Below, piece after piece: positions 14,659 through 34,271 of a stretch of DNA of 64,000 bases (positions are counted from its first letter, which is position 1; every line of letters starts with the position of its first letter). Origin of the DNA: Hypholoma sublateritium FD-334 SS-4 (Eukaryota; Basidiomycota; Agaricomycetes; Agaricales; Strophariaceae); contig KN817551.1 of NCBI GenBank assembly GCA_000827495.1, positions 62,001 through 126,000 of the forward strand. Reading direction: 5' to 3'. The notes below the pieces were generated by a model. That model saw nothing but the letters and a program-made list of their open reading frames with translations, searched no databases and was not told the origin of the DNA. Made by a program: the position numbers and the translations under genes.

Positions 14659-14669
14659 TACTGTCAGTA
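14659..14669. repeat. Candidate left target-site duplication (11 bp)
   Basis: TACTGTCAGTA occurs here and again at 21242-21252 in the same orientation, directly outside the inverted ends of the DUF6589/helicase element. Just inside both copies are related inverted sequences (GGCTCG on the left, GACTCG on the reverse strand at the right). A match of this length within the short flanks is unlikely but not impossible by chance. Confidence 0.45.
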
Positions 14670-14716
14670 GGCTCGTGACCAACCGCACTGTTTCGCACTC
14701 CGACGGAGGCTACGCA

Positions 14717-14776
14717 GTAGCGGCTGGGCCAAACGAGCACACTTTAGTACAGTCACACATGTCACAAAAGACTTAG
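14717..14776 (+). repeat. Left inverted terminal repeat
   Basis: 60-nt block starting GTAGCGGCTGGGCC and ending AAAGACTTAG. Its partner is the reverse complement of 21051-21110, which starts GTAGGGACTGGGCC and also ends AAAGACTTAG. The match is perfect over CTGGGCCAAACGA once aligned, and over the inner ten bases. The central 30 nt are diverged. Confidence 0.72.
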
Positions 14777-14824
14777 TCGAATTTACATCAATTCCACGCG
14801 CTGCATACATCATTGACCCGACAT

Positions 14825-17800
14825 TCACACTTCCTCTTCATCGCTACTCGCCTCAAATTCATCGCCTGAGTCATCGGACTCCTCCTCCACAGCTTGGTCA
14901 TCCTCGACTAGCTCAACATCCATGTCAAATGCCACATCGCCCTCGGTTACCAGAGGTGGCAATGAGTCTTCAACCAAGGTCAGTGCAATCACCTCGTCCT
15001 CCATGTCTCTGAACATTCTCGCTGTCTCCGGAAGCCCCCACCACTCTTCGTCAATATCCATCTCATCAAACTCACGACGGACACCTTCGTTTGCTGCTTC
15101 ATCAGGTGATTTCGGAGAAATGTGGGTTGCCGTTGTCGACCCCGCGGGAACTTCGGTGGGTTCAACATTACACTGGTTGGTGGGCAAGGATGGAGTAGTC
15201 TCCGTGGGTGGTGGGAGGTGCTCCGAGTGCTCGGACATCATTTGCGCGACTGTTTTCATACGCCTGCATTCTTGTAGACGACGGAAAGCTTCGTTGTAAT
15301 CTGATAATGGACTTTTAGTGCCATCCGTGAGATTGCGAAAGCCCACTTGGATGACATCCTTCACGGGCTTCTCCTCGTCGTCAAGAGTTCGGCCAGGTTG
15401 CAGCTCGTACACTTTGTACTCTGCGAGACTTGACATGAGACAGTCGATGTCTTTTGAGAGATCAGGCGATGCATGCTTCGTTCCCTGGTCAGAGCCAAGC
15501 TCTTGATTGAAATGCCTTGCAAGCTGGCGCAGGACGTTAACGCAGGGGCCTACCATGGCCAGCCAATCCCACGACGTATTCACGCCATGTGCCTTGTACC
15601 ATGTCTCAAAACAGGAACTGTAAATCAATCAAAGAAATTAACGAAGTAAGCACATAGACACACCTTGATCCAAAAATTGAGATGTTCCTGTACAAGGTCT
15701 ATCTCGACCCAGCTTTCCTCGTTTCCAGTGGGATTAAGCAGCCAATTGTTGAGTACAGCTTTTCTATCAGATAGTTGGTGTTGACTCCGTGAAAATGGAT
15801 GATGTACGTACTTCGTCTTTTCATCCCATACCTTTTCGAGGTTGTGGATAAGGTGGAGCATTTCATGTGCATACTTGGTACGCCCATTCCCTCGAAAACT
15901 CAAAGCCCACATCTTCAAGACGAGAACCACACGGCCAGAGTCGCCCGCTTTGACTGCATCAGTGAATTCCCGAGAGATAAGTGCGTCACGTAGAAACAAC
16001 AGGCCATTTTCATAGACCATGTCACCCTGAGCGGGCTTCTCTGACGGTGTACCTGCTTTCTCTGCATCTCCAGTTTCCATTTTGCGCTGCCATCGTAATT
16101 CGTCGACAGTGTCCGAATTTGCGTAGGTCTCGTAGATTTTTGTGGCGTGTAAGACAAGAGAGTCCCATGACGTGAATTTCGCACTATATTTGTCCAAAGA
16201 ATTGCAACCAGAAACGAGGAGTAAGCAATGAAGAACACGCGCATATAGTGAAATGAAAACCAGGTCACGACAGACCCGGAAAGGAGGCAGCGAGGTAGTG
16301 GTGATGGGAAGGCGGTCAAGACGAGTGTTGTGGAACCACAGCGAGCCAGGATTTCGTGCGCCTGTGTTTGGTGTTCCCCAATGAGATAGCAATGTGCCCT
16401 GCATGTCTGCCATCTTTGCGTGAAACAGACCTGGCATCCACGCACCCCAAAAAAATCCATTGTAGCCACTTTCCTGTCCACCACGGATGATCTCCAGAGC
16501 ACGAAGACAGGCAATTGAGAGCTGGTCCCCGCCTTGAAAACGCACCCTGTCCGAGAACTCTGGAATGTCTTTCAACTTGAGCTCGTTAACAATTGCCTCA
16601 TCCACTTCGGCATTACCGGTGATGGTTGATTCATCAATGTTCCAAGGTGGTAGGGGATAGAGTTCCGATTTATGGAGCTTGATTTTCTCCTTTGTTTTTG
16701 GCTGGTTCTTGTTCAGCTCTTTTTCGAAGTGTTTGAATTTGTCGCCGCCAAATTTGATAATAGTGCGCAGGATGGTAAAAATAAGATTTTTCTGAAATGT
16801 GTCGCACTCATCTGGGCTATGGAGGATGTCTTTGGTTGAGAGGGGATCTGCGTCCAGGAAGTTTGACTGAAAGTCAGCCACCTTGATGTCATCAAGACTC
16901 GCATCGAAAAGGGGTGTGATTGTAGCGCAAGTTCCATTTTCTTGTGAATCTAGATGAACCGAGTCAATGTGCGCAATTTTTATTAACTAAAAAATATGCA
17001 CCGTGGCGACCAATAACCTGCTCTGCACTTTTCATCTGAAGATTTATGTTGTCATACACACTGGCAAAAAGCCCAGTCGAAGCCACCTCATGTGATTTAG
17101 CGCGCATCGCCTCGGAGAGCTGAGTGAGAGTGCCCGTGTATTCAATTTTCTTCGGAACATTGGGATCAAGTGCGCCACTGGTGTCGGCTACAGCTGAAGT
17201 GCGATGACGACGAACATTGCGAGATACAATATTGCTGTAGCTTTCCGAGAGGCCCAGGTTTGAAAGAACAGCAATCGTTTGGCGCTGGGCTCCATTTGCA
17301 TATAGATACAAACCAATCATACGCTTCGCGAGATTGTTTGAATGGCTATACTCACCCAAGCAGGTAAGCGCTGCTGATGTGATGACCTGGATAAGAAATG
17401 GTGTACTTAATACACTGATAAATAGTACAGACAACATGAAGTCACATACTAGTTTGGTTCTTTCCTTGCGACTATCTGTATGTGTGTTTGCATTACGAGA
17501 GGTCGCCAATGCACCTATGAGACGCATGCTGTTAGGTGCCAGTTCGTTTGACAGCTCGTCATGCAGTTCCAAAAAGCTGAATGATGTGACCAGTTTCTCG
17601 TCAATTGACTTTCCTTGTGTCTGCAGGCGTCGCGACTTGGAAATTTTGCGGGCTTCACGAGTTACGGTTTTCTCAAGGTAAGTCATAGCCCATTCATGGA
17701 GTTCGGCCTTCACATTGGAGCTGTAATCCGAGGAGCTCCACCAGTCCAGCATTTGCGAGAGGGAACCATGCCGAATGAGAAATTCATGGTAGTATACCTT

Positions 17801-18238
17801 TCCTTGTCCATTTGCCGGATTGAACATGTAATCAAGGAAATCACCAAAACGGACACCCTTCTCGGCCATGTAAGCAAGAACCTCTTCATAGTGCATAGCT
17901 TGTTCCAGCTCGGCTTCAGCTAATTCACGGGCTTGGTGGCAGGCTCTGTGCTTGAGCATTTTTCCGCGGCGTGAGGCTGCTCGTTCAGCACGAGTTTTGC
18001 CCTTGACTGGGCTAGTATCAAAGACTGAAACAGGGGACAGAAGGACCCCTTCCACCTGATCAGAGTCCACAATACTTGATAGAGGTGAGCTGTCATAGTG
18101 GAGGTTGTAGGCAGGAATGGGCGGTGAGGAGGCGATTGGAAGTGAGCGTGCCCGGTTTCTTGAAGATTTTGGGGTATGAGGAAACAGACGACGAGATACG
18201 GGCAGCTCCATTGGTGTTGAGGTAGGTAGTGAAGACAT
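14825..18238 (-). CDS. DUF6589 domain protein (candidate transposase)
   Basis: Four exons (18238-17450, 17386-17002, 16949-15664, 15604-14825) joined by introns of 63, 52 and 59 nt give exactly 1,080 codons, so 1,079 aa. DUF6589 hallmarks are ASVYDNINLQMKSAEQVIGR continuing over an intron into DSQENGTCATITPLFDAS, then FQGGDQLSIACLRALEIIRG, WMPGLFHAKMADMQGTLLSH, the WGTPN segment, and QEHLNFWIK joined to TWYKAHGVNTSWDWLAMVGP. The N-terminus is basic and the C-terminus is a long acidic tail (DDSGDEFEASSDEEEV). DUF6589 has no established biochemical function that I know of. The conserved acidic positions in YDN and GGDQ suggest an RNase-H-like nuclease, but this is inference. The gene is intact and divergent from the helicase, with starts 145 nt apart. 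The 63-nt first intron is free of stops and in frame, so retention would add 21 residues. Confidence 0.85.
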
Positions 18239-18383
18239 TGATCATGGTTTAAGTAAAACAGAATGTAAAAGGTTGGAACTTGGAAGATGTAAGTCAAGAA
18301 ATATGATGAATGTACGCCATGTACTCAAAACGGAAAGTGATCGAAATCGTCCTCCGTCTTTTCCCTTCCAACCCTCACCATCC
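18239..18383. promoter_or_regulatory. Shared bidirectional promoter of the element
   Basis: Only 145 nt separate the ATG of the DUF6589 gene (18238, minus) and the preferred ATG of the helicase (18384, plus). Both promoters and 5' leaders must lie here or overlap the coding regions, which suggests coordinated expression. In-frame ATGs at 18273 and 18303 would extend the helicase and shorten the interval further. No clear TATA box is visible. Confidence 0.5.
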
Positions 18384-20927
18384 ATGTCTGGCCCAGGTCG
18401 CAAAAAGGGCCCCAAACCTGAAAAACACGTCAAATCAGGCTGGAAGGGAATCAAGCTGAAGGACTTACAAAACCTTGGAGAAAGAATCAAGGCGGGATTC
18501 AAGTGGATACACCAGCCTCGCGACTACCAGGTAGAGGCTATCCGTGCACAGCTGAGCCGAAGAGACATACTCATCCATGCTGGCACGGGCTCTGGGAAAA
18601 CAGCCTGCGTAGCAGGCCCATACGCACTAGCCGAAACCAAAGGGCTGGTCACCCTGATGGTATCACCTTTAATCGCACTGCAGGAGGAACAGATAAGTCA
18701 CTCATAAGCTTTTCGTAACAAAATCTGATCTTATTATATCCACGTTCAAACCTTCAAAGATGAGTTTAACCTCAAAAGTATTGCTGTAAACAGTATCAGC
18801 GGAGGATGTACATCTGCGAATATGAAGGTGTGAATCACATAACGTACCAATACATCTTTGACCTGACAACTGCACGATCAGAAAATTGTTGAGGGCGAAT
18901 ACCCAATAGTGATCATTTCACCTGAAATGCTCCTGTCAAAATGCTTCATCAATGGTGTCTTACGGAAAGCAGAAATGGGACGTCGCCTGCTTTCAGTGGT
19001 CATCGACGAGGCCCATGTAATTTCACATTGGGGAAACGGCTTCCGCAAAATGTATGCGAGACTTGGCATACTTCGAGCGCTGCTACCCAAAGGAACACCA
19101 TTCATGGCCATGTCAGCTACACTGGGAGCGCGTGTACGTAACGACGTCCTTACCAAACTTCAATATGATGAAAAGGATTATATCAACATTAATCTGGGAA
19201 ACGACCGGGCAAATGTGTCACTAGTGGTACGCGCCATCCAACATCCAATGAACACTTACCGCGACCTCGATTTCCTGGTCCCAAAGACCGCAAAAGTGCC
19301 AAACGATGTCAAGAAATCTTTCGTATATGCAGACAGTGTCGTTACTGGAACAGAGATAGAGCAGAGATTATATGAGAACGCACCTAAAGCCTTTCGTGAG
19401 CAGGGAATCATACGACCATACAGCGCCGCATTCAGTTCAGAACATCGGGCTCAGTTGATGTCACTATTCAAGTCCGGTGTGGTTCGGATACTGATTTGCA
19501 CGGATGCTGCAGGGATGGTGCGTTCCTATATGAAATCAATAAAACTATCAGTGAATAAACTCACCTTCGTGTTGTGGTCTAGGGTTGCAATATTCCGGAT
19601 ATCGACATCGTTGTTCAGTGGAAATTACCATCGTCAATTTCTTCATTTGTTCAGCGAGCCGGCCGAGCTGCGCGAGGACACGGAAGGACCGGCCTTGCTG
19701 TTTTGCTCGTGGAAAAGTCAGCGTACGAGGCTGATTTAAGCGGATTATCTGATGAAACAGCTATCAGCGCAACAAAATCAAAATCAAAAGGAGTCCGACA
19801 ATCGTCAACGTACCCAAAAGCTACGAAGGACTACGCAATAATGCACGGTGTATTACGTGGATCGTACGGGGGTCAATCCGACGCAAACTGCCTAAATGCC
19901 GATGTCTATTTAGACCGAAACTCATTGGACGAAGGGCTGTACTCACTGGTGCAGACTGGTCAGTGCCGACGGGCTGTACTGCAAAGTGTGTACAGAAACG
20001 AAAAACCTCGTAAGTAATGAATATTGAGAGAGAATCAAACTAAAANNNACGTACTGTAACAGATCCAACAGTGCCTTGTTGCGATCTCTGCTGCCCCGAC
20101 CTCCTCAACCAAACTAGACCCGGAAAACCTGAATCTTCAGAGCGAGNNNNNNNNNNNNNNNNNNNNNNNNNNNNNNNNNNNNNNNNNNNNNNNNNNNNNN
20201 NNNNNNNNNNNNNNNNNNNNNNNNNNNNNNNNNNNNNNNNNNNNNNNNNNNNNNNNNNNNNNNNNNNNNNNNNNNNNNNNNNNNNNNNNNNNNNNNNNNN
20301 NNNNNNNNNNNNNNNNNNNNNNNNNNNNNNNNNNNNNNNNNNNNNNNNNNNNNNNNNNNNNNNNNNNNNNNNNNNNNNNNNNNNNNNNNNNNNNNNNNNN
20401 NNNNNNNNNNNNNNNNNNNNNNNNNNNNNNNNNNNNNNNNNNNNNNNNNNNNNNNNNNNNNNNNNNNNNNNNNNNNNNNNNNNNNNNNNNNNNNNNNNNN
20501 NNNNNNNNNNNNNNNNNNNNNNNNNNNNNNNNNNNNNNNNNNNNNNNNNNNNNNNNNNNNNNNNNNNNNNNNNNNNNNNNNNNNNNNNNNNNNNNNNNNN
20601 NNNNNNNNNNNNNNNNNNNNNNNNNNNNNNNNNNNNNNNNNNNNNNNNNNNNNNNNNNNNNNNNNNATCGTTCCCGCGACGCCTGCACGTCCATCAGCCC
20701 AGAACCCATATGCTTCGCTTCCTCACTACTATCAGTATCCTGTCACCCCATCCACTGGGGCAACTCCCTATTATCTACCCTATCCTCAGTGGCCCCAGCA
20801 CCATTACTTCAGCCCCATGCCTTCCTTTTATCAGCCAATGTACTCTACAAATGTCCCCATTCCTACTCCTCCTGCCACCCCTTTACCTAGAAACCCCAAT
20901 TCTGATAGACCAAATCCCCCAAATTAA
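18384..20927 (+). CDS. RecQ-like DEAH-box ATP-dependent DNA helicase
   Basis: Starts MSGPGRKKGPKPEKHVKSGW. Helicase motifs in order: DYQVEAIRAQL, Walker A HAGTGSGKT, SPLIALQEEQ, motif II VIDEAHVISHWG, motif III MSATLGARV, FVYAD, ICTDAAGM joined to GCNIPDIDIVVQWKLP, and motif VI FVQRAGRAARG. A cysteine cluster (VPCCDLCCPDLL) follows, resembling a zinc-binding segment. After the assembly gap comes a Pro/Tyr-rich tail (YYLPYPQWPQHHYFSPMPSF) ending in TAA at 20925-20927. Introns: 18693-18743 (AT...AC ends), 18828-18881, 19518-19582, 20010-20062. It belongs to superfamily 2 and probably unwinds DNA 3' to 5'. It resembles helicases that, as I recall, are repeated in agaric genomes. Apart from the gap and the odd first intron, the frame is open. 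In-frame ATGs at 18273 and 18303 are alternative starts. Confidence 0.83.
20147..20666. other. Assembly gap (520 N)
   Basis: A run of N interrupts the C-terminal part of the helicase gene, after KPESSER and before the Pro/Tyr-rich tail. Frame continuity across it cannot be judged. Small N runs also occur at 20046-20048, 21033, 21128-21129 and three single sites between 47446 and 47500. Confidence 0.99.
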
Positions 20928-21050
20928 ATTTATTTTTCATGTATCGTCTATTACAGTCATGAAGTACACGAGGATGCAAAAAAAATGGAGCAATGACAAT
21001 GTTTTGTTGTGGAGGTAGAGACGTGTGCGAGCNACGAAGAGCGATTTTTT

Positions 21051-21110
21051 CTAAGTCTTTGTCACGCTCGCGAGCCTTGGTAAAAGTGCTTCGTTTGGCC
21101 CAGTCCCTAC
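21051..21110 (-). repeat. Right inverted terminal repeat
   Basis: Inverse partner of 14717-14776. On the minus strand it begins GTAGGGACTGGGCCAAACGA and ends AAAGACTTAG. The outward continuation (AGGTAGACCCC on the minus strand) is repeated in opposite orientation at about 21208-21236. Confidence 0.7.
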
Positions 21111-21236
21111 GGGGTCTACCTCAAAACNNTCGGCCCGAGCAAATGTTGTCTCTATTTGTACGGTAAAATATAACCAACATTCTGCTAATATTACCAAACA
21201 GTATGAAGGTAGACCCCGTAGGAGACTGGCTAGCGA
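21098..21236. repeat. Head-to-head duplicated end sequence (hairpin)
   Basis: The plus strand reads AGTCCCTACGGGGTCTACCT at 21102-21121 and, about 90 nt further, AGGTAGACCCCGTAGGAGAC starting near 21210. These are inverted copies of each other and resemble the outer end of the right terminal repeat. The arrangement could be a second, nested terminus, or a foldback made during excision and repair. Ns at 21128-21129 fall between the arms. Confidence 0.65.
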
Positions 21237-21241
21237 GTCTA

Positions 21242-21252
21242 TACTGTCAGTA
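21242..21252. repeat. Candidate right target-site duplication (11 bp)
   Basis: Second copy of TACTGTCAGTA, matching 14659-14669 in direct orientation and lying immediately outside the duplicated right-end sequence. Confidence 0.45.
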
Positions 21253-21890: not shown

Positions 21891-24800
21891 TGTGTGACTG
21901 GAATAAGGCTTATAGGGCGAAGCGCTTGCTTTTCCTACGTCGAGATAACATGGTTTTATACCTTGAGCGGCAGCGCCAGGTTACATATGTATCAAGAAAA
22001 AAATACAGACAGGACATTGCATGCCGCAGCGCGTGGTGGTAAAGGTCAGTCATGGGTTCGCTCTGCTTAGATGTGCTTCATTCCCCATTCTCTTCGAGAA
22101 AAGAGATGATGCGTCACTAACGCAAATGTCTATATTTAGCCTGAGGCAGGATTGGACGTTGAAAATCCTCAGAAATGCGGGGCGACTTGCTGCAACAATA
22201 TAGGCGCTGGGAATCTATAATAGAAGGCAGATGGGTAATATAGGGGTTGAACTTTATATACGGTTGTAGATGTTATCCAGCTTCGTCGCTCTCGAGTCTG
22301 ACCTCCGTCAATGCATGGATGAAGATATTAAAGCAACTGAGCAATCACCCATATCCGAGGACACGACTGGGTACGGACACTACGGAGAGAAAACGAGGTT
22401 TGATCGAATTTGATCACTCAGCGATGGTTAGATTTTTACCCAGCAGGAAAGGAGAACTCGAGACACGTACAAGGATTTATTGAGAACTTTCAACGTCATT
22501 AATCAGCTCACCCCTTCCCGCGTGGATTTGTTTTATCAAGTACTCGGAATAATGCGCTTGGAATGAGACGCGTTGTGCGTTCCTTTGTCCACTACTTATA
22601 AAGTAGGAGAATAATTACATGTATCATCCAAGTCGCTGTCTAAGTAATTGGAGATAACTTGAAGGTCCTACAACGGCGTCGTGGCTTGAATCCTAAGCTT
22701 CATTATGTCTGTCGTGCGCTTTAGGTGGCGCGCTATGAGAGAACGGGAGTTGTTCCGAAGCCGAAAATGCTTTGTAGATATCATATCACTAAAATAGCTG
22801 ATGCTCATCCGGCCGTTCCGTGTGAGCCGGCGTCGAAACGCCAATCCGCCATGTGAGCGGATTAGACTGAGCTTCCAGTGCAATGCCAAGACATAAGAAA
22901 CGTGGTGCGCCTCTTTCATGCCGACGCCACCGGTACGTCGCGAGAAATCTCCCCAGCAGTATATTACGGTAATCACAGCGGGCCCGGAGGACCATTTTCC
23001 AAAAATGGCCTTCGCTCTTGATAGAACTAGCTAGCTTGTTGCAATTTAATACAGACGAAAGTACTTCGTCGGCGCGTCTTTGAGCTTGGGGAACTTCGGT
23101 CGTTGCTTCGACCCACTTCGTGGACTTACCAGCTCTCGCGAGACATTCTCATCGACCAGGAATTCTCGGTGATCGAACATCTCTAATGCGGCTGAGATCT
23201 TCTATAAGCTTTCCTCATTCTTCGTGTTTTACTGATCTGTAGCTCTCCCCCGTTCAGTTGCCTCGATACACACGCAGTCTGTGAAAACAGCAGAACATGA
23301 TCACAAAAAACAGGCGTAGGAAGATTTGAGTTGTTGACCAGCAGTGCATATGTGCGGGATGAGCGCCGCGGCCTCCAACGTGAGCAACGGATCCACCCCC
23401 AGTGACATCGAACAGCGTATGCGAGACGGTGACATGATGAAAATGACGGACAGGCAAAAGACTGGAAATGTTGTTTATTATCACCGCTGTTTCCACAGAG
23501 ATTCGAAAGTCACCGGATAAGGCAGGGGCTGAGGAACTAGAACAGCCAGACCCCCGTTCGCAAGCCGGTGTATAGCAAGACGGGTTGGACCAGCGGAAAT
23601 GTTCCCGTGAAAGTCGGCGGGGTTCTATAACAGCATCACAGATGTATAGCCCGCATACCGGGTCACCATCCAGAGCATGCGCGCCGCAGGCGTAAGGACG
23701 GCAGGGAATATAGCTAGGAAACATATGAAGTTCAGGTGCCGAAGGGAATGGGGGGAGTGCGAGCGTTACCAGGCCGGCCGCCATCGACGCTGGCGAAGAC
23801 AATCAGCGCTGGGAAAGAGGATCTTTACGCAAGAGCGCTCATGTGGGTCGTCGAGAGCGAATGAAGAGTATTAGTTGGAGCCCATATGATCTACCTATAC
23901 GATCAGTGGGAAAGATGGGAGACCAAGAGATGGTGTACGAGCGTATTAAATGATTTCGCTGAACCTGCCGCAACCGCGCGCAATCTTCCGGATCGAACAG
24001 GGACGAGCTCCTCGCATGAGAATAAACGAACAGGAAGCCCAGAAGACGACTTAGGAAGATAAAACCTATATGCCGCGAGTGGTTAGTAAATGAGAAATAG
24101 TCGGCAGTGTGTCGAAATACATTTTGAACTCTGTTTACCGCTCACTGGAAGCGCTGTATGTTTGAATCAAATTGGTAGGCCAGGCGGCAGGCCGAGATGG
24201 ACACTGTGTGCAGATCCGAGTGAGAAAGGAGTACGCAAAGCGCGGTGTAGTGACCCACAATATATAGAAACCAGGCAAGTAGGCAATACTACTCCGTGAA
24301 TTATGCATGTGAGGCTGAGACGCACGAAGATTCGTTTACTACCGTCTGAAACGCGCACGAGACTTGCCTCACGGTCACGATATCTCCTAGTATGTTCCCA
24401 GGGACCCCTCAAGGGCCAGGCCGCTATCCAAGGATTCCAAAACGGCTACTCATGTATGGACAGAAAATCGGCAATTAGTTTCGACTAACTTGCCGGCGAC
24501 GAATGCTAAACTTCGCTGCTCCAGAATTTGCTCATCGTCGGGCCGACAAAACTGCCGTCCGAGGTTAGGCGCTAATGGTTTTTATAGCGAGAGTGTGGAG
24601 CTCAGCTGCGGTGAATCTCACATCCACGTGTGTTAGCAAGCGCGGAAGGATATCCTCCGGGGAGGTATCCTCCCGCCGCACGCGCCGGAGTCTGTCCTGA
24701 CGCACTTTCTAACCCACGGAGACGATTACACGAGGCACATTCCAGAGCGGTATTAACCGCGTGCCGTTTTCTAAGCCCGGCGGCATATTCGGCAACTCAG

Positions 24801-25661
24801 AATATGATGAGCGCCTGCCGATTGTATAAGCTAAGAGCTTAGACGGTTGCTCTTGAGATCGGGTCTCGCTGAGCGATATATATATATCGTTCCGCTCCGT
24901 CCCCTACTTACTTAGGCTTCGACTCGGAAGGGGTACTTGTGAATTAAATTGGAAATAAACCAAGCTACGGTGGGTGCCTCTGAGTGACGCATATTATATA
25001 TGCGGAAATTCGCACTATTGAGTGGGGAGCAGGAAAATTGGGTCACAGAATAAAGTTCAGCATGGATGAAATGTGTATGGCCTCAATTAGTTGACGAGTT
25101 TCCAAATGCCCAAACGCCATCATCCAAGGACTGCACTGCCTCCGTCGTGATTATGATGACGAATATTGAAAGATGTTCTCCGTTAACTCCGTCATGCATT
25201 GCGCGAGGTGAGTCGTACTTTCCAGTTCGACTTGTATACACAATCCACGTCGTATCACATTTTTACGGTTACGACCAAAACCACCGTAGTAATTGGACGA
25301 TCTGATACAGCCTTTGGGAGACTTTCAGCGTCATCGTGATATTATTTGGAGTGTAGGGTCGATCGTTGATCCGTACGCCAAGTATCCCCGGAGCGCTAAG
25401 AATTGTTGTCCCAATCCTCGCTTGCCAAAATGAGGGTCTCCGAATCGCCGGATGAATGAGGCAAATTGCGTCTCTCTACCAATCCTTATTACCCTCTCTG
25501 AGAACAAGGACTTACATAGGTTAAGCAACAAGACTGTTTGCGCTGGGCCTGGCCACTACATTTTGTTTCACCGCACGGCTGGAAATTTGAGTAAATTCTC
25601 GGAATAGGTATGGTATCGCAGTTGGAATAGTATCTTATATATCCGCTCACAGGTGGTCGGG
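21891..25661. other. Long intergenic stretch, no supported gene
   Basis: About 3.8 kb upstream of both the CVNH gene and the DUF6593 gene. The longest frame is 182 codons on the minus strand (23802-23254), Ser/Pro/Cys-rich with one hydrophobic C-terminal segment and no recognised motif; I do not call it. A short hairpin is visible at 24648-24672 (GGATATCCTCC paired with GGAGGTATCC), and a 16-nt AT palindrome lies near 24871. Nothing else was identified. Confidence 0.4.
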
Positions 25662-25668
25662 TATATAA
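25662..25668 (+). promoter_or_regulatory. TATA box of the DUF6593 gene
   Basis: TATATAA about 95 nt before the ATG at 25764. The leader between them is pyrimidine-rich, as in many highly expressed fungal genes. Confidence 0.6.
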
Positions 25669-25763
25669 TGAGAGGATTGCAGAACTCGTACACCACCCAG
25701 AGTCTCAGCTTCTATTTCATTCGCAACAAACTTCGTTCTCTCTTCTAAGTCTTTTTATTCAAC

Positions 25764-26482
25764 ATGTTTACCAATAATCCCTACGCGCAAGCAGGATGGC
25801 ACAACCCCCAAAATCCTCAGTCGATCAACAATGGGCCTTGGCATCCTAATGCCCCATACCCGCCTACCTATGGAGCTTTACCGCCCTTACACGACAAGCC
25901 ACAGTCTGTTCTCATCTTCACCTTCTCTTATTTCAACCCAGATGTATTTAACTGCATCGTCACGGGCCCCAAGGATCGTAGATATTTTGAGGTCCGCACC
26001 AGTTCAAACACGACAGTAATTTCAAAACCTGGCGAAGATTTTGCAACTATCCAATGGGGCCGCCACCCCTCTGTTGAAGCGAGGGGCGTCACATCTCGGC
26101 AGCTCACAAAAGATTTCTTGAGACTCTCGGCGGATCAAACGTACGCTTTCCAATGCCCAAATCGACTACGCATTATTTTTACGCCATCACTGTACAGGTA
26201 CAGATCAATGACTATTGGCACCCGCACATTTTCCTGGATTCCGAGAGGAGGGCAGGGAATCTATGTGAGAACATACATCTCCGATTCTGCGGGACATACT
26301 AACATACTGTACAGCTCTATAGTCATGGTCCAAATCCGCCGGAACAGTACGCCAGAATTACATTAGCTCCAGATAACAGCCAGATTGTTTTGGAAATCAC
26401 AAGCGAAGCTTTTCAAGCGAGCTTGTTTGAACCTTGCGTAATTTCCACAATTTTACTCTTTAGTGCCCGCAATATCGACTGA
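25764..26482 (+). CDS. DUF6593 domain protein
   Basis: Two exons (25764-26264, 26315-26482) separated by a 50-nt intron with a clear CTAAC branch site and CAG acceptor give 222 aa. The N-terminus is Pro/Asn/Tyr-rich (MFTNNPYAQAGWHNPQNPQS). The domain then follows the DUF6593 plan: LIFTFSYFNPDVFNCIVTGP, YFEVRTSSNTTVISKPG, FATIQWGRHPSVEARG, FLRLSADQTYAF, TFSWIP, HGPNPPEQYARITL, and the terminal LEITSEAFQASLF ... LLFSARNID. DUF6593 proteins are numerous in Agaricomycetes, lack signal peptides and have no known activity. The ending (LLFSARNID) is typical of the complete domain, so this copy appears full length and intact. Confidence 0.82.
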
Positions 26483-27727
26483 ATGTCTCTTGATTTTGTT
26501 TATCTGTATCGAATAGAATAACTTCATATCTTACCTGTATTAAACTTCATATTTATTTGCCTGTTTGGTTATCTTCTTCTCTACTATACATGCACATACC
26601 TTATTTATATGTCTTGATATTTATTAACATATTTAACGCAGATTTGACCAAATATTTTTCTTTCTAACAAAGTTCGGTCAGAAAGAAGCTAGATAAAACA
26701 ATCTTCTCTACATTAATCACTGAATCATGTAGTCTTTTACTGAGAGATATGTCGATGTCATGGGTGTTCAACATTTTAGACGAAAATATCTGCGTCCACC
26801 TCACCTCCGACGCCCGTGATTCAAAAACACCCACATCAGCCATGTATGACCCAACCGGTCAGCGCCCAACGTTCAACTCTCAACATTCACATATCCACGA
26901 AATTGCACTCTTGTTGCATCCACATATTTACTGAATTATTATACTATCTTAAAATACTCATGGGATCAAACAGTGCGTACTCCGAAGCGTAGCTCGATCT
27001 TGTGCCTTGATTGGGAGTACGCACGATCAGCGTGTCTTGATAATCAGGCGCCCGTGGGCCCACAATCAGAGCCAATTGACCCACTTAATACGCGGCGAAT
27101 GTTCAAGTCATCTTCTACTCAATAATGGGCCTCGGGACCTCGTATGAGTTTGCCCAAGTTGAGTCCCGCTGACTATGATTTTGCCAGTATATCGATGACA
27201 GAATACGCCGGGACGTCAATATGGGCATAACCGTTTCGCTTCGGCACCGAGGCTTCGAGTTTAAATGTAAGTATATTAAAGGTTACCTACAGTAAATTGC
27301 ACCTGAGAATCTAGGGCAGAGAATACGTATCGCCAAAATAACGCCCTTGGTTGCATGCAGTGTGGGCTCAGGCAATCTCCAACACTATCCATGGCCTAAG
27401 TAGGGAAGCGCAATTCATATCATGCTACAGCTTCATCAAACCTCATGATATTATTTTACTGGCTTATTGATCTCTTTGAAAGCCCCGGACGCTCAGTGCT
27501 GTGGACTATCTCAGGCGCTGAAATGCAACTGGCGCATCGAAGCGCATTTTTTCTGTACCAGACGCTTTGGATTTCATGTACCCTTATCATAGTATATCGG
27601 CGAAATTTACAGTTCCAGTGGCTCAGATCTACCTGGCCGAGGACAAAGAATGTGAAAAAAGTGTCGCTCCATCGTTGACGTTTTTAGTTGTGCTTAGGAT
27701 AACTTAGTCGCACGCGCCGCGTGCCCG
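26483..27727. other. Intergenic with hairpin, no supported gene
   Basis: AT-rich in its first third. An 11-bp perfect inverted repeat (GTGCGTACTCC at 26973-26983 and GGAGTACGCAC at 27014-27024) encloses a 30-nt loop. The 77-codon plus frame at 27445-27678 has no motif. Confidence 0.4.
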
Positions 27728-27743
27728 ACGCGACGCGACGCGT
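27728..27743. promoter_or_regulatory. MluI-box (MCB-like) cluster upstream of FHA-kinase 2
   Basis: Three overlapping ACGCG boxes (ACGCGA, ACGCGA, ACGCGT) lie about 380 nt before the kinase ATG, followed by a CACGTG E-box-like site near 27774. ACGCGT is the core bound by MBF (Swi6 with an Mbp1-type partner) in G1/S-regulated fungal genes. That this site works here is inference. Confidence 0.4.
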
Positions 27744-28118
27744 CGGTGGCCGTGCCGTATAGTCACGTGTTGTTCAAATGTGGGAGCTCTGAGTCTTGCA
27801 TTTCTTGCTGTCCAGTGTCCACTGTCGCCTCGTCAACTCCTCATTCTATGATGCTACGATGTCAGATTTCAACAACGACGCAAGCGTGGCCCATATACTG
27901 ATCTCTCAGATAGAAATGCAGCTGGCCGGGCTACCAAACTCATCGAGCTCAGACAATGCAATTTCGACGCTTTCCTTGCGCTTTGCCGGACCCTCTCCCC
28001 ATATGGAAAGGTCCAGACTAGACCGTGCCACCTTCAGCATCTACAAAACTCGCGCCTGCCACCTCTATATTGTTCCATTTGTATCCCCTCCACATCGTCA
28101 CCCACAATCGACCCACAC

Positions 28119-30330
28119 ATGGACGTCAACGCGCCCAACGAAGAGCACATCCCCATTCAGCCGTCCCTCTCGCCAACTGAGCCGGCTGAGCAAGAAGAGA
28201 TGGACGAGAAGCCAGACGTACCATCTGACTCTACCGATGAACACCTCTGGGGCCTGCTGAAGCCCATGGGCGGCGTCTCTCGCTCGCAAATCGACTTCTG
28301 GCGTATAAACCCGCATGTGAAAGTCGGCAGTGCGCTCGACAATCAGGTCGTAATCAACCACAAGAAAATCAGTGTGTTGCTCGCCTAAATACTGTCCTCC
28401 AAAAATACGAGACTGATTTATTACAGGTCCCTATCAGTGTATCTTTAAATGGGACGGGAAAGATAACTACTCCGTATGCGATTTCTCCGACACCGGGACA
28501 TATGTACGTCGGTCTAGGACTACGCGGCGCGCTGCGGCTAATTCATTATGATAGGTGGGTAATAATTTAATCGGAAAAGGAAAAGCATGCATCTTGAGGG
28601 ACGGGCAAGAGGTGTCATTCGGCTCCCTATTTGTCGGCCTAGACGAGGATATGGAGGACGACTTCCGTACGTTATTTCGCCATTTTCAGTTTGAAGGATT
28701 GGAATACTTACCGCATGTGATATATCATCAGGGTTTGTATACAGACGCGTCGTATACATCCCGCCGCCAAAGGGAATGCTCATCGATTACGACGTCTCCT
28801 GGCCACTTGGGGAGGGTGCGATGGGCACAGTCTTGAGCGTTATGCACAGAACGTCAGGTGAATGGCGTGCAGCGAAGCGCATCAAACTAAGCAAGACGCG
28901 GCCGCGGAGGGGGTTGTCGGCTCTCGCAATCGCTAAGCGCGAGGTCACTGTGATGAAGCAACTCAAGCATCCAAACATATGCAAAATGTATGAATCTTAT
29001 GTCTGTGAAGAAGACGATACGCTGGGTGAGTGATGCGCGATGTGCGACTCGGACGGGATTTCTCCTTTCTGAATGTGTCAAAACAGATATCATCATGGAG
29101 GTCGTTAAAGGCGTGAACCTGAGAGAATACGCCCTGGAAACGGAAAACGGTCTTCGTGTGTCCCAACAACTCGATAGTACGCGTCTACTAACAACTAAAT
29201 ATTCACAGCGGAAATAACGATGAAACATATTACTTATCAACTATGCGAGGCGATGGCAGTGAGTAACGATTTTTATTTATTTTTCTATTAGGCATGTCGT
29301 AACTGATGGGTACACAGTATGTTCACGCTCAAGGAATCACACACCGTGATCTCACGCCTCCCGTGCGGCATCTCTGCTAATTCCTCCCTGGCCGCGAAAT
29401 CTCATCATATTTGTTCTTAGAACATCCTACTAGATATCAGCGAACAACCACCTATTGTCAAAGTCGCGGATTTCGGCACGGCAAAAATAGTCCACGACGG
29501 AACAGCACTTCTCGTAAGCGTTCCCCATGCCCGCAAGGCAGAAAGTATACTAAGAATCTCTGTTAGAGTTCGTGCGGCACAGCCTACTTCGTCGCCCCGG
29601 AGATGCGAAGTAACGCGAGACTGAAAGGCGCATGTACTAATCTCGTCGACAGCTTTAGCTTGGGAGCGGTTCTCTACTACTGGTACTTCTACTTCATCTC
29701 TCGGCTTCTACCATACTGTGCTCATATACCGCCGACAGTTTGACCTTGAACGTTCCCTTTCTCCGGGTCCAGCCTGATAGGCAGAACCAGGATCTGGAAA
29801 CACACATTAAGGCGAGAAAGCGCGATCTGACAGGCTTGAAGGGCAGATCCGTCAGCGAAGAAGGTTCGTCTTGCCCTTTCCACAGGACAGAGCAAAGTTC
29901 CCACCTCATCTTCACAGTGACCGACATCATTACCCGCCTCATGTCTACACAGCCGATGAGACGTTACACTATGCGCGGTGTCCTCATGCATGCCTGGTTC
30001 AAGGAGTACCAGCCGCCGTACAAGTTTCCACGGGAGGCATATGAGGACGAGGCGAAGGAGGTTACGCGGGAACTGAGCAGGACACCCAGGAACGGTGTGA
30101 AAGGGAAGGGGCGCTCGCTTGGTAGAGCGCTGAATCTCTCCGCAGTTTTGGAAGAGGAGGCCGAGGCCGCTGCGCGCGTCGCGTCTATTCCCGCGGGCGG
30201 GGACGTTGAGATGGCGCTGTCGACGCCTATGAAGAAGGCGAAGGCGGCCACGGCGCTGCGCCGATCTAGCCGTCCCAACAAGGGCGTTCCTCCTAAGAGA
30301 TTGGCTGGCATCCGGACGCCCAAAAAGTGA
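28119..30330 (+). CDS. FHA domain plus protein kinase, copy 2 (catalytic Lys to Thr)
   Basis: Paralogue of the gene at 11.7-14.0 kb with the same exon order. The N-terminus MDVNAPNEEHIPIQPSLSPT leads into HLWGLLKPMGGVSRSQIDFW, VKVGSALDNQVVINHKKIS and, after an intron, PYQCIFKWDGKDNYSVCDF. Kinase landmarks: LGEGAMGTVLSV, WRAAKRI, REVTVMKQLKHPNICKMYES, YQLCEAMAYVHAQGITHRDL, VADFGTA and CGTAYFVAPEM. The catalytic loop reads HRDLTPP joined to NILLD, whereas copy 1 has HRDLKPT joined to NILV, so the phosphate-contacting lysine is a threonine (AAG to ACG). The C-terminus shares SLGRALNLSAVLEEE and GDVEMALSTPMKK with copy 1 and is rich in basic residues, like a nuclear localisation signal. It may have weak or no kinase activity. 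An upstream frame at 27859 (MSDFNNDASVAHIL) could be an extra exon, but I see no support. Confidence 0.8.
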
Positions 30331-33030
30331 CCAGTGTCTCGTCGTGGGGTGGCATGTTTGGGCTCCGTTAAACAATCTATCAAATCTTAGCTCACTAGAC
30401 ACGCATCAGTGTTCGAGTAATTATAATACTTAATGTGTTAGTAATAGTAGGTGTGCCGTCTGACAGGTATACACATACTTAACCTGAAGTGATTTAGTCT
30501 GTACAACCGCACCCAGAGAAAATATTCATGATCAAGGGATAGCTATCATAACAAGCCAAGGGGGAAATGTGTTCACAACTTTCTTATAAATGTCGGAGGC
30601 CATTGCATTCACGATATGTCACACTGATGGTGGCATAGTAAAACGTTGCGTTAAGAGCGGCCGATTTATGCTTTTCGTCTGTATATATTCACATTGCATA
30701 TGCAAAGTGCCCTGCCGCACGTACAATGTTCGTCCGTCTGTAAGTGTAATAGTGCCTGTGCGGCTGGCCCGTTCCTCGACTATGGATGAATATCGAGCAT
30801 TGATCATATCCAAGTCGGCATCCGCTTTAGCCAGGTCTGGCGCTTGATCCCAGGTCCCAATCAATGATTCTTTTCAAGAATTTAGTCAAGCCCAGGAACC
30901 AATGTCCACCATACGAAAGGAATGGACGTCCTGACTAGAAATCAATAGCGGGCGTGTGGTCGGTGGCATGGAAGGGCAGAGCTCATCTCGTTAGCGCGCT
31001 CCGGAAACCCCGCGCTCCATGTTGCACTCGTCGAATAGCGTTTGGTTGCCAACGCTAAGCTCGAGATATAGGGGTGGCTACGGACTGGGGCAGACTGCGT
31101 ACAAAGAGGCGCGCTTGCGGAAATGTTAATCAAGCCACCGCACTGAGCGCGGTCATGAGAAGGCAATTCCGAATACCCGCGCGGGCGTTCGCCAAGCTCG
31201 CTACGGCGATAAGTGAGACTCACCCAGCACGGGACAATTGCGAGAGTGACAGTATGGGGAGGCTGATGCGAGAGGCAGCACAATGGGGCGCGCCCACACA
31301 CACACCAGTCTGATGACCCCATGGGGACGAGCGTCACTTCAGTGCAGACGGGGCGTCGCACTCCGCGAAGTCGCCGCACTAAACAGCATGTACGGATGTG
31401 CACGACCTCCTGCGCATTCGCGGAAACGCGTACGGAAATGGGGAGAGATGTGAAGGCGTAAAAGCGTCACGCGACAAAGCCGGTGCCCCTCATTGGGACG
31501 AACACACTAGCGAGAATAAAAATGAAACTAGAAATGACTCATGAGACAGGTAGAAGATACAGCTTACGGGCAAAAATGTAGGGAGGACTTAGATTGGTTG
31601 ATGATGTAGATAGCCTACGTGAGGGGGAGGGTATAAATGGGGAGAGAGAGAAATATCGGAAATGATACGGCACACCTTGAGGTGGCCTCAGACCTACGGC
31701 GCGGCAAAAATGCCTGAAAGATGGGAGATATGACCGTCAGTTCTTTCATACGAGCGCAGGTAAGAGGGCGCGAATTGAGAGACGCACCTGATTTACTGGA
31801 TGACATGCGTATTCGCGGAAGATAATCGCCTCCGTACGACAGTGAGTTCACTGCTGCCTGTGCGTTATAATGTCAGTCGTGCAGTCATGCCCCACATTGG
31901 GCCATCGCAGCGACGCAAAAGTACTACCCTTGTCCCAACCACCGTGGTACACATAAGTACAACGCTGCATATTCCACCCTTTCACGAGGTGCGCCCACGT
32001 CCAGTCCACCTGCTGGTCGAATTTGGGTCGAATGGCAGGCAACGCTTCGGCGAAAAGAGGTACGAAAAGTGACACCGCGCAGAGTCCATTCATAGAAGAG
32101 GGACGTATCGCAGTCTATTCAGGAGGAGCACGGCGCGCAGAGAACGGACGTGAACGTCTAGGTGCGAGATACTTTGGAAATAAAAAAGAGCCACAAAGCA
32201 ACCACAACTTGAACTTGAAAGGGGAGAGTCGGACTCGCGCGTGGTTGAATTGTTTGCATTTAATTAGCACCGACTCCGCGTTCCGCGCTGCCGGTTTCCG
32301 TCCATCGGCCGCCGCCCTGGTTCCTACGCCCGAGCCAGTCTACGCGTTGGTGTCCCCGATACATTTATGTACTTAGAGGAATTTTAGCAGATGATTTGAA
32401 AATTGACAGTAGATTTCTATTGAAATAGAGAAATTTAATTATATTCTCACTTCTCACTACAGCTAGAGCACCGGCCGGCGAGAATCGACGGCGGCGCGCG
32501 GTCGGTGTACTATGTATGCTCCTTCGGATACGGCGCGTAAATTACTTAGAGTTACCTGGGCGTGTATTCCAGACGACGGAGTCGCTATCCAGTTTTGAGA
32601 TCTCGAACCGCCTGCCGCGCACAGCACAGACGCTATGTACTGCTTATCGCACGGATGGCGTTGATTATCTAGCGAGAAAACCTCAGTTCGTGCTATGTTT
32701 CATCACCGCCTCGACGCTCTCGCGCGGATACCTTTGATAGTTCGCTATGTTCGCTGGGTCCCAAAAGTACAGCAACATATGATCACATCCCAAAGCGAAA
32801 GGTCTTTATCCAATAGAACTTCGTATATTTTGGGTGCCGTCGACGTCTGGAAAATATCAGCAATTAGTTTCTTGTCTAACCACTTTTGATTAGAAAATAT
32901 ATGACAGTTGACATATACTCGTAGCAGAATACGCTTTGCTCGGATAGATGTGTGTAATACTCTTTTTTCATTTAAAATAAGCACCAAATAAGCACATATC
33001 TCTCTCGACAGTTACAGTTCCCTCTCTTTA
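30331..33030. other. Intergenic, no supported gene
   Basis: 2.7 kb with only short frames (at most about 150 codons, low complexity, no motifs) on both strands. The sequence is GC-rich at 30950-32350 and AT-rich from 32380 on. No repeats shared with other parts of the window were found. The 5' end of membrane copy b may have an additional small exon just before 33031, since a CTTTAG acceptor precedes it. Confidence 0.4.
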
Positions 33031-34271
33031 GGCTACCCCATATCTGATATCGCGGACCCGAATGTTTCCGTTCAACAAGTAGTTATCAATGGGGCAGTGA
33101 GTTCCTCGATGCTAGGAATTCTTCTGCAGGGTGGGTACAAAACCAAGCGCTTGCGTGAAGGCATGGGCTGACATAGATTGTTGCAGGTATTTACACAACT
33201 GTCTATCTTGCTACTGCGTATATATACCGTAAGACGGCTCGATCCTTGGGAGGATGGCTATTGAAAGGGTTTTTAGTCACCAGGAAGTCCAAGAGGAGAT
33301 TTTGGGTGCTCTTAGCAATCACAAGCTTATACGCGCTGGCCGTCGTCGAAACTGTGATTAATTGGGTATTGGTTACATCAATAGTTGGAATGACCGGACA
33401 GCCAACCATCAGTTCCTACTTCTACTTATTAGCAGGGGCAAATTGGGCAGCAATTCTCAACATTGTCTGCGACTGCTTAATTTCAGTGATCGCCGATGCA
33501 TTAATTGTAAGCAGAACCTTCATATTTGAACCAACTATGCGCTGATTAATAAAGATATGGCGATGCTACGCAGTATGGGATAACTCTCTCCGAATCATCG
33601 TCGTGCCATTCGTACTCGTTCTCGCTGAGACTGGTAGGTGTTTACCTCTATAAATGCGGCACGAAAGATTTAATCGTACTATTTGAGCAGGATTCTACGT
33701 TAATTCTATAATAATGATCCTCATTGCAAATTTCGAACCAGCAGATAATGTAGCCCAAACTATCAATTGGCTTATAACCGGCGCACTGTTTTCGACAGTG
33801 GCTACGACGATGGTCTCCACAGTCCTGATAATCTACCGCATCTACTCCGTGACACGCAAGAACGTCATGATCCGCGGAGGCAGCCGGTACACGCACATCC
33901 TCGATCTGCTTGTACAATCCGATGCACTGTACGTCTTCGGGTCACTGCTGCTAGCGATTCCACTGGTCCTTCCCGTCACGAACACGAGCGAGGTCCGTGT
34001 GCTTACTGCACAGTACTACTCAGGGTCAATATTCCCCTTTACAGCCGTGAGCGATTATTTTCATCATCTCAGCATGATCCTGATGGACTCCAAGGGGGTT
34101 GCACCTACCCTGATGGTGGCGCGCCTCGCGCTCGGCACATCCCGCAACGCGGGACGCAGTGTACAGTCTGCACATATATCTGAGATCCAGTTCCATGCGA
34201 CGAGTGCGATATCTGCTTCATCCGGAGATAGACAGGTGTATTCTCCCCCAAAGGATCAGGAGGGACCTTGA
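33031..34271 (+). CDS. Seven-helix-type membrane protein, copy b
   Basis: Paralogue of copies a and c. Exons read GYPISDIADPNVSVQQVVIN ... GILLQ, then GIYTTVYLATAYIYRKTARS, the helix SLYALAVVETVINWVLVTSI, NIVCDCLISVIADALI, IWRCYAVWDNSLRIIVVPFV, FYVNSIIMILIANFEPADNV, a loop with IYRIYSVTRKNVMIRGGSRY, further helices, and GVAPTLMVARLALGTSRNAG before a polar tail ending KDQEGP. Introns with clear GT-AG ends separate these blocks. No ATG in frame precedes GYPISD within this exon, and an acceptor-like CTTTAG lies directly before it, so a small upstream first exon is expected; 33109 is the first internal ATG. Function is unknown, probably a membrane-embedded receptor-like or channel-like protein. 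Its 3' end faces the truncated SDR copy 1, mirroring copy c with SDR copy 3. Confidence 0.65.

Follow-up and report, generated by a model that had tools for sequence, protein, structure and literature searches.

A mushroom transposon, most likely of the AcademH lineage, with a predicted DUF6589 transposase and a RecQ-like helicase

In the genome of the wood-decay mushroom Hypholoma sublateritium FD-334 SS-4, a gene for a DUF6589 protein and a divergently transcribed gene for a RecQ-like helicase lie within a mobile element of about 6.6 kb. Most likely, this element is a DNA transposon of the AcademH lineage, with the DUF6589 protein as its DDE transposase and the helicase as its accessory. The stretch analysed, hereafter the window, consists of 64,000 nucleotides (G000:C34:62001-126000) of a 46-Mb assembly in 281 contigs, which are denoted below by C-numbers. 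A preliminary description of this locus, made from the window alone, had proposed a single mobile element bounded by terminal inverted repeats (TIRs), and this proposal is borne out by copies with the same ends but other 9-bp duplications, by sister elements, and by the empty sites of one of these, on C126.

Boundaries and copies of the element

The element occupies positions 14668..21241 of the window (6574 bp, with a 520-N assembly gap inside), the bases at which the similarity of three other copies starts and stops. Its outermost sequence is TAGGCTCG...CGAGTCTA, and on both sides it is flanked by TACTGTCAG, a 9-bp target-site duplication (left copy 14659..14667, right copy 21242..21250) that is evident from the sequence and from the different 9-bp duplications found at the same ends in other copies. 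The left terminus TAGGCTCG (14668..14675, plus strand) and the right terminus (21234..21241, minus strand, TAGACTCG when read inward) form an outer inverted repeat that matches in 7/8 positions. When the window was scanned for inverted ends flanked by 8-10-bp duplications, this pair ranked first of 139, with a terminal identity of 7/10, and simple shuffling of the left end, repeated 100 times, never produced an ungapped inverted 25-mer match as good as the best one between the two 200-nt ends (21/25).

The inverted ends had been described as 60-nt blocks at 14717..14776 (plus strand) and 21051..21110 (minus strand). The short matches within these blocks are genuine: 14717-14736 agrees with the reverse complement of 21091-21110 in 18/20 positions, and 14767-14776 with 21051-21060 in 10/10. 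However, the ungapped identity of the blocks is only 35/60, so that they represent two short conserved pieces rather than one 60-nt TIR, and they are subterminal arms rather than termini: copies elsewhere fix the real ends at 14668, 49 bp beyond the left block, and at 21241, 131 bp beyond the right one. Similarly, the 11-bp direct repeat reported around the unit, TACTGTCAGTA, does occur exactly twice in the window, at 14659 and 21242, but the duplication accounts for only 9 bp of it; the additional TA is the first two bases of the element on the left and a chance match on the right. The right end also contains a perfect 16-bp inverted repeat (CCTACGGGGTCTACCT / AGGTAGACCCCGTAGG, 21106..21222), for which no counterpart is reported at the left end, and the two ends are therefore asymmetric.

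Flank searches within the same genome recovered three derivatives, on C119, C41 and C100, with exactly the same ends as the window element. Similarity begins at window position 14668 in C119 and C41 (in C100, it begins four bases earlier in one search, by chance), and the right-hand similarity of the copies ends at 21241. Read by eye, the flanks carry GATGGTCCC on both sides in C119 (9/9) and GGTCCCAAT on both sides in C41 (9/9), and the nonamers GCTATTCAC and GCCATTCAC in C100 (8/9). Because the copies begin and stop at these bases and have 9-bp duplications of their own, the length of the element is 6574 bp, its duplications are 9 bp long, and the 60-nt blocks are subterminal. Similarity running straight through the termini, which had been named as an outcome that would speak against mobility, was not found in these alignments, where that of all three derivatives stops at the termini. 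The C119 and C100 copies are internally deleted derivatives, the former retaining a helicase remnant, and their near-identity to the window element over the shared parts (98-99% and 99.4-100%, respectively) points to recent movement. Both flanks of the window insertion match only themselves, so that an empty site for this copy cannot be seen, and none was seen in its own genome.

The two genes

The DUF6589 gene (14825..18238, minus strand) and the helicase gene (18384..20927, plus strand) diverge from a 145-nt stretch between their start codons (18239..18383), exactly as had been described. The DUF6589 gene is delineated by the Pfam match (PF20231, E 3.2e-126), a splice model, the annotated protein, an AlphaFold model and conservation. 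A model with three introns yields a product of 1084 aa, compared with 970 aa in the annotated version (P0001), which has a later Met start and lacks a further 16 residues, apparently a fourth intron; the public annotated protein of this strain is 97% identical to the spliced model. The claim that both genes are intact is thus borne out for DUF6589, with its spliced model of 1084 aa; the reading frame of the helicase, which may or may not be intact, is interrupted by 520 N (20147-20666) as well as single Ns. The part of the helicase gene beyond the gap and its stop codon (20925-20927) are presumed from the open frame there.

The helicase gene contains several introns and was identified through its DEAD and Helicase_C Pfam domains, its reading frames and its best PDB match, RecQ (E 1e-30), followed by WRN, BLM, RECQ5 and RECQ1 chains, which places it in superfamily 2 as a RecQ-like enzyme. 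The protein contains GTGSGKT, DEAH and QRAGRAAR, which we take to be helicase motifs.

The DUF6589 protein is very probably a transposase of the DDE type, as judged from a predicted structure. The AlphaFold model has a mean pLDDT of 84.8, and in the fold comparison with this model, the top 24 VIA rows are all DDE-type transposases or RAG1, the VIA matches including Hermes, P element, ISCth4, Transib and RAG1. Foldseek alone returned nothing at E<=0.001, and querying the sequences in the PDB with the DUF6589 profile gave no match up to E 1. The putative acidic triad is D282/D440/E661 (P0001 numbering): in the alignment, D282 is present in 81/81 rows, D440 in 78/81 and E661 in 80/81, the remaining rows being gaps, and all three residues are invariant after addition of the C16, C31 and C113 proteins. 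A C/DxxH motif between the second D and the last E is ascribed to the hAT, P, MuDR, Kolobok and Dada group (PMC9587614); between D440 and E661 of DUF6589, no alignment column has this motif in at least 40 of the 81 rows, and the conserved H475 is preceded, three residues ahead, by G in 80/81 rows. The three DUF6589 exons scanned contain no match to Pfam KDZ (PF18758). The predicted fold and the conserved triad support the earlier proposal that DUF6589 is behind its own expansion.

Sister elements and empty sites

The 18 exon-level DUF6589 matches in the genome fall into 10 loci, at six of which a helicase relative adjoins the DUF6589 gene, divergently in the window (C34) and on C113, and convergently on C16, C31, C126 and at C38:37490. 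Gene order thus varies, with the helicase on the strand opposite to DUF6589 in all six pairs; those on C31 and C38 are only remote relatives (24-35% and 29%, respectively). DUF6589 loci without a helicase neighbour, an outcome that the preliminary description had regarded as adverse, do exist in this genome (4/10), but as far as seen, they are broken genes or short fragments. At C37 and C196, the DUF6589 match contains eight and four stops, respectively, some of which may lie in introns, and there is no helicase within the 10 kb fetched; C38:19494 is a 90-position fragment beside Ns and C52 a 76-position fragment at a contig end, both checked for helicases in up to 1.5 kb of flank and in the genome-wide list of helicase matches. 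Apart from these loci, a helicase fragment with 52% identity to the window helicase lies at C3:58138-58692, a contig for which no DUF6589 match is listed.

The ends were examined at five of the six paired loci, and four of these (the window, C16, C31 and C126) have inverted ends and an exact 9-bp duplication, the C113 element having ends without a duplication. Among all eight copies for which both ends were located, the duplication is an exact 9 bp in six (these four, C119 and C41), 8/9 in C100 and absent in C113. The C126 element (87924-94163), with ends TAGGTTCG/TAGGCTCG and the duplication CCCTGGCCT (9/9), ranks first of 179 pairs in a scan for inverted ends with 8-10-bp duplications that assumes no end sequence, where its ends read TAGGTTCGGA/TAGGCTCGGC. 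The C16 element (502674-508029) has TAGTCTCATG at both ends, a perfect 193-bp TIR and the duplication CAGAGCATG (9/9); the remaining 10/10 rows of its scan fall in a palindromic CGCGCG run within the TIR. The perfection of this TIR suggests that the element was active very recently or that its ends underwent gene conversion with each other. On C31, a scan demanding TAG ends located an element at 110432-116356 with ends TAGCCTCGTG/TAGGCCGGTG, termini TAGCCTCG/TAGGCCGG, a TIR of about 184 bp at 89% and the duplication CTCCATCCC (9/9). The C113 element (24385-33836) ends in TAGACTCG and TAGGCTCG and has a 248-bp inverted repeat at 94%; no target duplication is present in its outer flanks, where the nonamers CGTAACACA and GGTTGAGCT differ. 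The two end types of this element are swapped relative to the genes, and it could be a recombinant of two elements. On C103 and C196, a left end with a matching duplication was not found.

When the flanks of the C126 element are joined with one copy of the duplication, eight other places in the genome match over query positions 1-500 with 84-97% identity. Four of the eight were fetched, and all four continue through the junction, three of them ungapped and the fourth with one gap, which lies beyond the displayed stretch; where the sequence can be read, at least one base departs from the duplication (CCCAGG or CCAGG for CCCTGG). Given that these matches run through the junction, the C126 element is inserted in a repeat that also has unoccupied copies.

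Linkage and distribution among Agaricomycetes

The pairing of the two genes extends to other Agaricomycetes: 41 of the 120 listed DUF6589 proteins share a species and an equal-sized contig with a listed helicase, equal contig size serving as a proxy for contig identity and the lists comprising the best 120 of at least 402 DUF6589 relatives and the best 120 of 493 helicases. On contigs of at most 100 kb, 12 of the 33 listed DUF6589 proteins are so paired, and two pairs have consecutive locus tags (NP233_g1884/g1885 and MD484_g3436/g3437). The distance matrices of the paired proteins are correlated (Mantel r 0.835, none of 2000 permutations as high), a correlation for which host phylogeny in common could alone suffice; this set comprised 37 of the 41 DUF6589 rows, with P0020, P0046, P0022 and P0088 excluded on account of more than one candidate on a contig, and distances for pairs overlapping in at most 50 positions were fixed at 0.6.

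When the divergent C16 protein was used to look for DUF6589 outside Agaricomycetes, 157 matches were obtained; many of the best 120 are nameless, and the named ones among these 120 are Agaricomycetes. On viral and prokaryotic contigs, there were 100 and 118 pattern matches, respectively, none confirmed as relatives. Among the matches listed, the named DUF6589 relatives go by hypothetical, uncharacterized or DUF6589 domain-containing protein, and the word DUF6589 occurs in no paper of an open library of 5.39 million, so that its link to an AcademH-type transposon may be unpublished as far as that library goes. Mushroom genomes hold many DUF6589 proteins, as the at least 402 relatives in one search attest; their identity as helicase-linked transposases would account for this expansion and let annotators mask such genes as mobile elements. 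Moreover, sets of transposase, helicase and ends provide material for asking why certain DDE transposons carry a helicase.

Classification and alternative explanations

AcademH, reportedly described by Kojima in 2020, is a lineage of the Academ superfamily. Its helicase is RecQ-like, and its elements have TIRs; those of the present family comprise, in the window element, an 8-bp outer TIR (7/8) with subterminal arms and, in the C31 and C16 elements, long TIRs. According to the portions of the literature consulted, Academ is a DDD/E superfamily (PMC9587614), AcademH duplications of 9 or 10 bp and AcademX duplications of 3 or 4 bp are tied to the encoded helicase or nuclease (PMC10045372), DEAD and Helicase_C domains are attributed to AcademH, KolobokH or Helitron, and AcademH is present in low copy number in Basidiomycota, Ascomycota and Mucoromycota (PMC10799480). 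The window element has a 9-bp duplication and a helicase with both of these domains, and the predicted fold and conserved triad of DUF6589 would agree with a DDD/E transposase. As in those accounts, this is a helicase-encoding DNA transposon with 9-10-bp duplications and low copy number in Basidiomycota. The name DUF6589, the TAGNNTC ends and a gene order that changes between divergent and convergent are absent from the portions of those descriptions that were seen. Since the accessory enzyme, the stagger and the host all agree, AcademH appears to be the best place to file this element, by description rather than by sequence. The earlier suggestion of a transposon class absent from the literature is probably wrong: the helicase, the duplications of 9 bp and the fungal host are all published AcademH traits. 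What is new is most likely the identity of DUF6589 as an apparent transposase, the element type itself apparently having been described in 2020. AcademX belongs to the same superfamily but combines 3-4-bp duplications with a nuclease, in contrast to the 9 bp and helicase found here.

Other systems differ more. The hAT and P elements make 8-bp duplications, and neither is known to have a helicase partner; their transposases (Hermes for hAT) are 7-10% identical to DUF6589, which lacks their C/DxxH motif. Kyakuja (KDZ) and Plavaka elements are DNA transposons of the same Agaricomycete hosts, but the former have 7-bp duplications and CA..TG ends without TIRs (in two families), and the latter have 2-3-bp duplications.

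Among the rival readings, the one in which two host genes lie between chance or unrelated repeats with a fortuitous duplication might draw on the weakness of the window scan taken by itself, with its 139 duplication pairs and a best terminal identity of 7/10, but it is refuted by the same-end copies: three of these share their terminal bases although their flanks are unrelated, two of them are bordered by an exact 9-bp duplication, and given the sister elements and empty sites in addition, we accord it virtually no credence. A RecQ-bearing Kolobok element, in the KolobokH or Kolobok-1_CCri arrangement, seems very unlikely as well. Kolobok targets TTAA, whereas the duplications here are 9 bp long and varied in sequence, which would by itself refute this reading, and its C/DxxH motif is the one that no D440-E661 column displays in 40 or more of the 81 rows. 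The resemblance is that KolobokH is a fungi-only DNA transposon group with a RecQ helicase and Kolobok-1_CCri, from a red alga, encodes its RecQ helicase on the complementary strand, as in the window (PMC9587614).

A better case, although one we consider rather improbable, can be made for a separate, undescribed superfamily, in which a DUF6589 DDE transposase unrelated to Academ acquired its helicase partner and 9-bp duplication independently of AcademH. The AcademH likeness comes from descriptions, the word DUF6589 is absent from the open library, and RecQ helicases are not confined to a single transposon lineage, as KolobokH and Kolobok-1_CCri indicate (PMC9587614); however, the accessory enzyme, duplication length and host group are all as in AcademH. 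It is similarly doubtful that DUF6589 defines a superfamily of its own with a convergent RecQ-like helicase and 9-bp stagger, in which the two genes of the module flipped their relative orientation between lineages while the TAGNNTC ends and the stagger stayed fixed. If true, such flips amid fixed ends and stagger would suggest a direct action of the helicase on the DDE intermediate.

Proposed mechanism

For a transposon of the AcademH lineage, which we favour, the following scheme can be envisaged. The DUF6589 protein would bind the TAGRCTCG ends and the subterminal inverted repeats, its acidic triad would cut the element out, and the protein would then join the element to target strands 9 bp apart, yielding the 9-bp duplication; transposition would, according to this scheme, presumably be of the cut-and-paste rather than the copy-and-paste kind. 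The RecQ-like helicase probably unwinds the ends or processes excision or gap-repair DNA, and non-autonomous derivatives such as those on C119 and C100 may move in trans.

A nested element in one derivative

A 25.9-kb cargo-carrying element on C41 was considered and rejected: although both ends and the 9-bp duplication are genuine, what lies between them is a deleted derivative broken up by a nested element, so that this is no giant cargo element of the DUF6589-helicase family. A second set of 10 ORFs from the C41 element gave nothing further above the cut-off. The nested element (C41:271926-296471, 24.5 kb) has perfect 13-bp inverted ends, CATCAGGAAAACC, with TA on each side, and these ends (CATCA..TGATG) are PlavakaB-like; inside it are matches to KDZ and CxC2, a TET/JBP match that falls short of Pfam's cut-off, and an assembly gap of 6.5 kb. 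The location of a KDZ gene within Plavaka-like ends suggests nesting or exchange.
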